Positions 2,402 to 6,371 of a DNA stretch of 6,692 bases are shown one piece after another. The notes under the pieces were generated by a model. That model was given only the letters and a program-made list of their open reading frames with translations. It was not told the origin of the DNA and searched no databases. The stretch comes from Nitrospinota bacterium (lineage in GTDB: Bacteria; Nitrospinota; Nitrospinia; JACRGO01): contig JACRGO010000108.1 in NCBI GenBank assembly GCA_016212295.1, positions 1 to 6,692 of the forward strand, read 5' to 3'. A program made the position numbers and the translations under genes. Position 1 is the stretch's first letter; each line of letters begins with the position of its first letter.

Positions 2402-3196
2402 TTAAAAAAACACATCCATGACCCGGCTAACGTAGTGCTGCGAGGCGATATCGAAGTCCACCCCCCGCTCCTTCAGGAATTTTCCGACGGAGGAATGGAC
2501 CAGATCAGGATGGTTGTTCGTTTCGCTGAGGTGGGTAAGGATGACAGACTTCAGGCCGGGGGAGTGCAGGATGTCCTCCAGCAGCTGCCTGCTCTCCTCG
2601 TTGGATAGGTGTCCGCTCTTGCCCTTCACCCTCTGCTTGAGAGCCCAGGGATAGGGACCGGAAAAAAGCATTTCGATGTCGTGGTTCGACTCCAACACAA
2701 GCGAGTTAACCCCCTTCAGGCGTTCCCTCACCAGATGCGTGACGTATCCAAGGTCGGACACGACTCCTAAACTCTTGCCGTTGTTTCTGATGACCAGGCC
2801 GATGGGGTCCTGGGCGTCGTGAGGGATGGAAAAAGGGGAGAAGATCAAATCGTTGATCTTGAAGTCCTCGGATGATTGGAAGAATACGGCGTCAGCCGCA
2901 TTGTCCCATTGCCGCTTGACGATATCGTACGCGGCGCGGTTCAGATAAACCGGCGTGTGGTGCTTCTTGGTGAACACGTTCACGCCGTTGGTGTGGTCCC
3001 TGTGCTCGTGGGTTATGACTATGCCGTGGAGTCCCTTGGGGTCGACCCCTATCTTCTCCAGCCTCGCCTCCAACTGCTTGCAGGAGAGCCCGGCGTCTAT
3101 GAGTATCCTGGTCTTTTCACTTTCTATGTAGATGGAGTTCCCCTTGCTTCCCCCGGCAAGGACGCAAAATCGAAAAATCTGGTTTTTCAGCAGCAT
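2402..3196 (-). CDS. MBL-fold metallohydrolase, YycJ/WalJ-like
   Basis: The 264-aa product is a full-length cytoplasmic metallo-beta-lactamase-fold protein of the YycJ (WalJ) type, a family thought to act as nucleases or phosphodiesterases; its substrate here is unknown. The opening FCVLAGGSKGNS is the family's N-terminal hallmark (usually CVLASGSxGNS). Metal-binding motifs in order: THEHRDH at 62-68, His126 in SIPHDA, Asp148 in VVSDLG, ESNHD at 169-173, SGHLSN with His196, and THLSETNNHP with His222. All expected ligands are present, so it should bind two metals. Its ATG (3196-3194) lies inside the end of arsM, overlapping by 10 bases. GGTGGAGG directly abuts the ATG, too close for a normal Shine-Dalgarno, so translation probably depends on coupling to arsM. 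A 6-bp hairpin beyond the stop (2372-2358) lacks a T-tract. Confidence 0.9.
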   Translation of the reverse strand: MLLKNQIFRFCVLAGGSKGNSIYIESEKTRILIDAGLSCKQLEARLEKIGVDPKGLHGIVITHEHRDHTNGVNVFTKKHHTPVYLNRAAYDIVKRQWDNAADAVFFQSSEDFKINDLIFSPFSIPHDAQDPIGLVIRNNGKSLGVVSDLGYVTHLVRERLKGVNSLVLESNHDIEMLFSGPYPWALKQRVKGKSGHLSNEESRQLLEDILHSPGLKSVILTHLSETNNHPDLVHSSVGKFLKERGVDFDIASQHYVSRVMDVFF

Positions 3197-4155
3197 CCTC
3201 CACCGTCATAAAAAAAGGTTGGGCCTGTGACGTGGATGTCCGCCCTTCCCAAGGACTTCAACGCCTTGGCGGTCTTGTCGCACACGCTGAAGGGCATGTC
3301 GCGCGAAAGGACGTGTCCCTTGCGGTCATCGAAGAATTTCTCCTCCCCGAAGTAGATGGCCGAGCGCCCGGTGAAGACGCATGGGCCGTCCGCCGGTATG
3401 GGGTCCTTGACGGCCGCGACCTCGATGCTCTCAAGAAGGACGTCCTTTTCCACCCCGTAGCGTTTCTTGTCCAATATCCGGTAAGGCCGCCTGGCCCGCA
3501 CCTCTATGGTCCCGAAGCCGGTCTCCACCAGAAGCTGCAAATAGCGGTCGTAGGTAAGCGCCCCGGAGAGGCACATGGCGCGAAGCCGCTCGTTTTCCCT
3601 TAAATGCCCTGGAATTTTCCCGGGCGCGATGGGGTCGGATAGCGCCAGCTTGCCTCGCGGCTTAAGGACCCGGTACATCTCGGCCAGGGCCTTTCTTAAG
3701 TCGTCTTCCTTCAGGATGTTGAAGAGGCAGTTCTGCGCGGCCAGGTCCACTGTCCCGTCATGGAGCGGCAGACTCAAGGTATTTCCCATTTCGAGGCGGA
3801 CGAAGTCATGCCGGAACCAGGGGTTGAGCCTTTCCGCCTCCAGGAAATTTTCTTTCGCGGCCCGGATCATCTCCGGCACGGCGTCCACTCCGATCACCGC
3901 CCCCTTTTCTCTCAGGAAGTAGGCGAATTGGAGGAGTTCCATGCCTCCGCCTATCCCGGCATACAGGATCTTCATGCCGTCGTCCAGGTCCCTTGGGTGG
4001 ACCGTGGTCCCGCACCCGTAGTTCATCTCCAGCATTTTAGGGGGTACGCGCAGGTCGGGCAGTTTCCACACCGGAGAGGTGGTGCAGCAGAGGCCCTTTT
4101 CCGGGGCCTCGGCCATTTCCTTATAAAAATCCTCGGCCGCCTTCAGATAACTCAT
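3187..4155 (-). CDS. arsM: ArsM-like arsenite S-adenosylmethionine methyltransferase (arsenosugar-type)
   Basis: The 322-aa product should transfer methyl groups from SAM to trivalent arsenic in the cytoplasm. ArsM cysteines are in place: Cys23-Cys24 in GLCCTT, Cys48 in NYGCGT, Cys143 in AQNCLFN and Cys195 in AMCLSGAL. By family knowledge the last two match the As(III)-binding pair. The SAM loop is YAGIGGGMELL (65-75), with Asp91 at the end of the next strand. Instead of a short ArsM tail it has a long C-terminal extension (RARRPYRILD, ADGPCVFTG, FDDRKGHVL) ending in GGGCC. This matches my recollection of the cyanobacterial form, annotated as the arsenosugar biosynthesis methyltransferase, which normally sits with the radical-SAM enzyme ArsS; no arsS is in this window. 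The start fits that family's N-terminus. No Shine-Dalgarno is visible, only an AT-rich leader. No ArsR-like operator was recognised. The MBL gene overlaps its stop codon. Confidence 0.85.
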   Translation of the reverse strand: MSYLKAAEDFYKEMAEAPEKGLCCTTSPVWKLPDLRVPPKMLEMNYGCGTTVHPRDLDDGMKILYAGIGGGMELLQFAYFLREKGAVIGVDAVPEMIRAAKENFLEAERLNPWFRHDFVRLEMGNTLSLPLHDGTVDLAAQNCLFNILKEDDLRKALAEMYRVLKPRGKLALSDPIAPGKIPGHLRENERLRAMCLSGALTYDRYLQLLVETGFGTIEVRARRPYRILDKKRYGVEKDVLLESIEVAAVKDPIPADGPCVFTGRSAIYFGEEKFFDDRKGHVLSRDMPFSVCDKTAKALKSLGRADIHVTGPTFFYDGGGCC

Positions 4156-5940: not shown

Positions 5941-6144
5941 TCATGTGCCTCTCTGCTCCAATTGAAAATTGTAAATTAACGATTGAGAATGTCCTCCGCC
6001 TTTTGCCCTTAACCTTTCGCCCAATGACTCATCGGAATAGTCGGCCAGGGGCAGAGAGCCGCACACGCTGCTCCCGCATAAGGTTATTAGCTGTGTCAGA
6101 GACCGTGCCAGGAATAAAACCGGATGAAGGAATATTTTTTTCAT
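5941..6144 (-). CDS. Possible small exported protein, perhaps a decayed gene
   Basis: The 67-aa frame is not recognised. In its favour, AAGGAGG (6157-6151) lies 6 nt before the ATG (6144-6142), the strongest ribosome binding site in the window. The product starts MKKIFLHPVLFLA, a charged start followed by a hydrophobic stretch to about residue 22 as in a signal peptide, then CGSSVCGSLPLADYSDES. No standard lipobox is seen. Against it, the last ~15 residues are translated from the heptamer array at 5960-5993, so the natural C-terminus is either lost or made of repeat DNA. It may be the 5' end of a truncated or frameshifted gene, or a short peptide. It is convergent with mpl. Confidence 0.33.
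   Translation of the reverse strand: MKKIFLHPVLFLARSLTQLITLCGSSVCGSLPLADYSDESLGERLRAKGGGHSQSLIYNFQLEQRGT
5960..5993 (+). repeat. Heptamer array A, AATTNNN-like
   Basis: Consecutive 7-bp units start at 5960, 5967, 5974, 5981 and about 5988: AATTGAA, AATTGTA and AATTAAC are followed by GATTGAG and AATGTCC. Three perfect AATT steps and two variants give a clear 7-bp period. Confidence 0.55.
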
Positions 6145-6178
6145 GCCTTCCCTCCTTTTAAAAATTGGCCATTAACTC

Positions 6179-6201
6179 TTGAACCAGGCGCAAAGGCTGA
6201 A
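6179..6201 (+). repeat. Direct repeat R, copy 1
   Basis: A 23-bp string beginning TTGAACCAGGCG and ending AAAGGCTGAA is repeated at 6282-6304 with one mismatch (G to A at the twelfth base). The two copies bracket the heptamer arrays B and C. Confidence 0.75.
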
Positions 6202-6210
6202 TGACTATCT

Positions 6211-6252
6211 TCGTACATCGTCATTCGTACTTCGTCGTTCGTGCATCGAGCT
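6211..6252 (+). repeat. Heptamer array B, TCGTNNN
   Basis: Six gapless 7-bp units start at 6211, 6218, 6225, 6232, 6239 and 6246. Five begin TCGT and the last begins TCGA. The variable three bases are ACA, CAT, ACT, CGT, GCA and GCT. Confidence 0.75.
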
Positions 6253-6255
6253 TCC

Positions 6256-6283
6256 AATCCGCAACTCGTAACCCGCAATTATT
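6256..6283 (+). repeat. Heptamer array C, AAYYCGY-like
   Basis: Four 7-bp units follow array B after a 3-bp phase shift: AATCCGC (6256), AACTCGT (6263), AACCCGC (6270) and the degenerate AATTATT (6277). All begin AA and the first three share a CG at positions 5-6. Confidence 0.5.
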
Positions 6284-6304
6284 GAACCAGGCACAAAGGC
6301 TGAA
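6282..6304 (+). repeat. Direct repeat R, copy 2
   Basis: This is the second copy of the 23-bp direct repeat at 6179-6201, 22 of 23 bases identical, 103 bp downstream start to start. It directly follows array C. Confidence 0.75.
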
Positions 6305-6329: not shown

Positions 6330-6371
6330 AAAATTTACAATTTACAATCGACGATTGACAATTGTAAATTC
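6330..6371 (+). repeat. Heptamer array D, ACAATTK, also an inverted repeat
   Basis: Six gapless 7-bp units start at 6330, 6337, 6344, 6351, 6358 and 6365. The core units are ACAATTT, ACAATCG, ACGATTG and ACAATTG, flanked by AAAATTT and TAAATTC. The same stretch is an imperfect inverted repeat: 6332-6350 against 6352-6370, 17 of 19 positions pairing. Confidence 0.65.

Follow-up and report, generated by a model that had tools for sequence, protein, structure and literature searches.

In this study, tandem heptamer arrays of bacteria are tied to S23p elements, in which a gene of the S23p family (PF05635) lies between complementary arms; heptamer repeats on the one hand and IVS-type S23p on the other were already known. 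The window, i.e. the whole stretch of 6,692 nucleotides analysed here (contig C61), belongs to a 3.74-Mb draft genome of a Nitrospinota bacterium (G000) and carries a heptamer array downstream of the mpl gene. We infer that this array is probably a solitary, decayed arm of a hairpin-armed, IVS-type mobile element. More tentatively, and with slightly less than even confidence, we propose that bacterial heptamer repeats (STRRs and their relatives) belong, as a class, to a widespread S23p-centred family of mobile hairpins, of which they form the arms and which would be recognised by the shape of the stem and not by its sequence, the word drifting through turnover of units and crossing phyla with the element. 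To our knowledge, heptamer repeats have been on record for decades, first from cyanobacteria and then from many bacteria, and their origin is not agreed upon; we also know of no function for the free-standing 'four helix bundle' S23p genes, which are common. An origin for the repeats would be offered by heptamer arrays serving as the two arms with which small mobile elements, many carrying an S23p-family gene, fold into hairpins, and if arrays and S23p belong to one element, both are explained. S23p genes are then predicted in hairpin loops, arrays at the edges, empty sites in sister strains, and words that track the S23p lineage.

The array in the window consists of two stretches:

6211 to 6252, + strand: TCGTNNN heptamer array, identified by sequence, TRF, shuffles and a word match to S23p arms
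6253 to 6281, + strand: further heptamers of this family (CGYAAYY), the register having slipped by 1 nt, identified by sequence and arm match

Six gapless TCGT-led heptamers had been described in the initial annotation. The array is real, but only five units are exact TCGT at 7-nt spacing (6211, 6218, 6225, 6232 and 6239), the sixth being TCGA (6246); TRF called 6210-6248. The 813-nt intergenic stretch was shuffled 2000 times (order 1), and five TCGT at period 7 never arose. At lag 7 the score is 10.6, which lies at about the 1% level of order-2 shuffles of the whole window, 0.5% of which reach 11, and a score of 11 was reached in none of 400 shuffles of the intergenic stretch. Compared with the words of S23p arms, 6211-6252 gave a match score of 20 and shuffled sequences at most 13. 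The second stretch, which had been taken for a distinct heptamer family with a different consensus, reads CGCAACT CGTAACC CGCAATT up to about 6281. Because both stretches read CGYNNYT in the CG register and one 6-nt unit (CCAATC) lies between them, the second consensus is the first word slipped by 1 nt, and the idea of two families was rejected. In addition, the second stretch scores 17 against the arm (AATTGCG/AATTACG) of an S23p element from Chitinophaga, and shuffles do not exceed 13. That the period of 7 is maintained while the word drifts was borne out. No Rfam match was obtained in the window, and the array does not lie inside an rRNA gene.

Further features surround the array:

6332 to 6370, no strand: second period-7 array, forming a hairpin on its own, with 19-nt arms that are 89% complementary and 1 nt apart
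5959 to 5986, + strand: short AATTGTNN-type heptamer stretch with direct and inverted matches to 6332-6370 and a weak fold
6174 to 6201, + strand: left copy of a 28-nt direct repeat bracketing the array, 89% identical to 6277-6304
6277 to 6304, + strand: right copy of the same direct repeat, 89% identical to 6174-6201
5941 to 6144, - strand: decayed remnant of a secreted-protein gene, context outside the element, with intact paralogues beside the array on contig C110

Copies similar to the compact hairpin at 6332-6370 exist elsewhere in the genome. The paralogous array on C110 (89% over 88 nt) adjoins the intact paralogues of the decayed gene as well as both copies of the 28-nt direct repeat. 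It is split by about 390 nt (L117:1110-1500), whereas it is uninterrupted in the window; the insert contains an ORF of 118 aa (102 from ATG), for which no Pfam family was matched. Elsewhere in the window, positions 3187-4155 (- strand) encode an arsenosugar-type ArsM arsenite methyltransferase (NF038099, 516 bits), and positions 1-140 are found again, 99-100% identical, at each end of contig C123 (L067), a repeat that probably broke the assembly.

A genome-wide excess of heptamers had been set beforehand as the test of an STRR-like class of dispersed arrays, and this excess is large. Runs of TTCGTNN with at most two mismatches (TTCGTNNTTCGTNNTTCGT pattern) were found at 180 places in G000, compared with 7 for the reversed control. 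Lag-7 self-similarity revealed 34 arrays in 238 kb, where order-2 shuffles lead one to expect 0.2; control lags in the same sequence gave three arrays (lag 6) and none (lag 8). Extrapolated from these 238 kb, which are contigs picked by number and the sole basis of the density estimate, the genome holds roughly 500 heptamer arrays. The remaining statistics rest on whole-genome pattern searches and on 561 kb of stretches (15% of the draft), partly from contigs with TTCGT matches. The array words are many (GTCATTG, AAATCTG, GAACATC, GGCGAAG, TTCGTGA and others), and the word often switches in register within one array. Since such arrays occur in many phyla, the setting of the window array, which had been described as a different one, is not odd. 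Unit length is not fixed at 7 either, as the sister species G001 also carries period-8 arrays, including period-8 hairpin arms (GGAGTAAT) at L076:8480-8645, L077:4610-4780 and L095:990-1145. The reversed control TGCTTNNTGCTTNNTGCTT is very common in G013, G015, G017 and G019 of the same class (184 and 214 per strand in G015) and is another heptamer word, used in another family of the window's class.

About half of the arrays in the 561 kb (55 of 111) have a complementary partner within 250 bp, compared with 12 of 111 when flanks were exchanged among arrays (p ~3e-10 by the Fisher test, which also served for the S23p comparisons). Same-strand partners showed no excess (7 versus 11 permuted, 111 arrays). 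This inverted pairing, often around an S23p gene, is the main feature of the arrays and had gone unnoticed in the initial annotation. Long clean stems with unrelated loops were obtained by folding in loci of G000, Lysobacter, Chiayiivirga, Chitinophaga, Thermomicrobiales and Prevotellaceae, the foreign loci having come up when named genomes were scanned for TTCGTNN runs. It is unlikely that the arrays are ordinary heptanucleotide SSRs, in which favoured 7-nt replication slippage in intergenic DNA would be followed by point mutation, with inverted pairs and S23p as side effects. In many bacteria no long SSR class is commoner than heptamers, for which a 7-nt polymerase footprint was proposed (Mrazek 2007, as relayed in PMC4679880 and PMC4692102), and the arm lengths of sibling copies do differ by whole units; inverted partners without an excess of direct ones are, however, not predicted by slippage. 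The initial annotation had concluded that simple slippage of one unit does not account for the array. This holds in so far as the word drifts and the period is kept, but the whole-heptamer changes in arm length between sibling copies indicate that slippage or unequal pairing also plays a role.

PF05635 (23S_rRNA_IVP) was searched in G000 because heptamers precede the S23p ORF in the 23S IVS of Coxiella (PMC4990558). It gave 18 matches, and none in 14 control genomes. At a score of at least 14, complementary and mostly heptamer-periodic arms enclose 13 of the 17 S23p ORFs that could be scored in G000, compared with 2 of 476 control ORFs of 95-180 aa (p ~2e-20). Across many phyla, 43 of 59 S23p ORFs have a stem (shifted controls, 2 of 209), and the best arm period was 7 in 31 of these 43, 8 in seven, 9 in four and 6 in one. 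As many of these genomes had been picked via TTCGT arrays, an independent set was taken by protein similarity alone: tblastn of G000 S23p against 72,556 plasmids gave 24 records, and 14 of the 16 loci examined possess complementary arms (shifted controls, 0 of about 62). Arm words on the plasmids were varied (GGGAAAA, GGGAGTA, AGGGAAC, AGGTGAC and, in Azospirillum, GAGGACG), two of the 16 cases have arrays on the same strand, and where neighbours are annotated, the elements have protein genes on one or both sides. Overall, a clear stem is missing at about a quarter of S23p ORFs. Phage records yielded no S23p match. An intact element consists of a 5' arm (about 30 nt), about 40 nt, the S23p ORF, 0-60 nt and the complementary 3' arm. 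The 5' arm is usually purine/G-rich, with more G than C in 52 of the 61 elements that have a G/C difference, and the tandem units are of 7, less often 8-9 nt. Complementary arms around one gene family are likewise not predicted by replication slippage.

Individual elements illustrate how far the arms vary. In Sorangium cellulosum (L294:1350-2010) an S23p element with a 103-nt stem shifts from period 7 to shorter units, and on a plasmid of Anabaena sp. 90 (L353:800-1700) dozens of ACAGGTG/ACAGGGA units form the 5' arm after cas6, the 3' arm apparently supplying, in frame, the N-terminus of cas4.

Within the window's class, all genomes with lag-7 arrays in the sample (G000, G001, G002, G008, G013, G015 and G017) have PF05635 matches, those of G017 lying only below the curated cut-off. 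No lag-7 array was found in 200 kb sampled from seven PF05635-free genomes of the class with readable sequence (G005, G010, G022, G031, G041, G043 and G044); G004, the sample of which consisted of N only, is not counted among these negatives.

Related cyanobacterial plasmids show that the arms come and go with the ORF beside genes. In the virB10 operon of Scytonema NIES-4073 and Trichormus (L354/L366), a complete element with its arms follows immediately on a stop codon, whereas this site is empty on Aulosira plasmid 3 (L359), with flank identity of about 97%. TAAT (or GTAAT) is duplicated at the occupied site, i.e. a target duplication of 4-5 bp. The 5' arm of one occupied copy has two heptamers (14 bp) more than that of the other, and at the same site of Nostoc C052 a deleted remnant has kept an arm. 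Insertion was also seen at the cas6-cas4, cmr2-cmr3 and nrd sites, where the duplication is not readable, so that it is clear at one site only. Nostoc ATCC 53789 has GGGAAC/GTTCCC arms without an annotated ORF where a Nostoc C052 plasmid has an S23p element with the same arms. Thus, arms change length in whole units and ORF-less remnants (L360 and L371) keep them. Occupied and empty sites are not expected from replication slippage. They also bear on the proposal that the arrays are protein-bound or transcript-acting sites (terminators, translational control) kept by selection. The arrays are intergenic, and such roles have been proposed for TAACTGA, GGGAATC and the Geobacter heptamers; yet the word varies between arrays, these undergo decay, and the corresponding operon position on sister plasmids holds no element at all, and we regard selection for regulation as very improbable. 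Single array copies may later have been put to regulatory use.

Arm words are passed down together with the S23p lineage, across phyla as well. Arm similarity is about 0.2 for pairs below 60% S23p protein identity and 0.48-0.85 for the 17 pairs above it. The element on C15 of G000 and one of an Oscillatoriales cyanobacterium, the proteins of which are 83% identical, both have AATTACG arms. Arrays in G000 are matched by 9 of 14 of its own S23p arms and by 26 of 48 foreign ones, but by only 1 of 61 shuffled arms. Words common to dispersed loci and phyla need transfer, which slippage does not provide. MacGregor (PMC4679880) reported that TAACTGA recurs in unrelated phyla and found no mechanism; inheritance of the arm word with S23p can explain such recurrence of the same heptamers.

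Many hairpins contain no ORF. In G000, the loops of most ORF-less hairpins leave no room for an S23p remnant, and S23p sequence was found in one of 21 sampled loops of at least 40 nt and was absent from the other 20. For most of these hairpins the tie to S23p therefore lies in anatomy and words and not in remnants. Of 28 genomes reached via TTCGT arrays, 27 have PF05635, the exception being Chiayiivirga (G070), with perfect heptamer hairpins. Besides, an ORF-less 146-bp family with period-7 arms and conserved ends is dispersed at L036:17317-17462 and at least 40 other places in G000 (88-95% identical), with a REP-like GCGGCGAAGCCGC sequence just past its 3' end; it is possibly a separate mobile element. 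A mixture is conceivable, in which S23p elements coexist with independent and more numerous ORF-less heptamer hairpins (MITE-/REP-like or terminators), the window array included. It would account for the short loops without S23p remnants, for Chiayiivirga and for the conserved ends of the 146-bp family. Against it, S23p arms and ORF-less arrays have common words far above shuffled controls, Nostoc S23p sites show ORF-less remnants with the same arms, and lag-7 arrays and PF05635 co-occur in the class; we consider such a mixture rather unlikely. A RAYT/Y1 transposase was also considered as mover and rejected, only two such genes without a specific link being present in G000.

The reading of the window array as a solitary arm in a decayed gene neighbourhood is based on the C110 paralogue beside intact genes together with a word common to S23p arms, at period 7 and in a genome with dispersed tandem heptamers in significant excess. 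No S23p ORF or recognisable remnant was found in the window (best tblastn E 0.015), nor was a partner arm for the array. It thus lacks the anatomy of a PF05635 ORF inside complementary arms and is filed as a possible remnant only, and since neither the window nor most ORF-less loops hold an S23p remnant, our claim is limited for those copies. Potentially, ORF and partner arm were lost from the window, or a local duplication brought the array along. The mobility machinery might recognise the long stem, as DNA or RNA, and not a fixed terminal sequence. Slippage between units, with one arm templating the other, would allow the word to drift without loss of period or complementarity. By analogy with its relative Avd, S23p might act as the nucleic-acid-binding partner of an enzyme. 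This raises the questions of how an element without a fixed terminal sequence moves, and how its two arms remain complementary during sequence drift.

Among the closest known systems is the IVS in the 23S rRNA of Coxiella burnetii (about 430 nt), which, like the elements described here, forms a long stem with an S23p (PF05635) ORF in its loop; tandem heptamers (GACAGAT) lie at its 5' end, in a number that varies by strain (PMC4990558). In contrast to it, the present elements are located beside or between protein-coding genes (cas, cmr, nrd, virB10 and others) and not in rRNA, their arms are mostly heptamer arrays, and many copies are ORF-less. No link between heptamer arrays and S23p was found in literature that leaves aside most subscription journals and older IVS papers. 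STRRs and other heptanucleotide repeats of cyanobacteria, Xanthomonas, Geobacter and Beggiatoaceae likewise have period 7, are mostly intergenic and occur in many copies, with 70 inverted pairs in Xanthomonas campestris, and regulation, G-quadruplexes or slippage were proposed for them (PMC4692102, PMC4679880, PMC2700814). Words like their TAACTGA occur here too. The texts of the Xanthomonas/Nostoc and Beggiatoaceae papers yielded no mention of S23, whereas the arrays are identified here as arms of S23p elements. S23p resembles Avd of diversity-generating retroelements (DGR) in sequence and fold (PMC10053308), the best-matching PDB chain for a G000 S23p being 2GSC (XCC0516); its function is likened to that of Avd by analogy only. 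MITEs and REP elements are also short, ORF-less, dispersed hairpins, but the elements described here have no conserved terminal sequence across copies, and their arms are tandem arrays with element-specific words.
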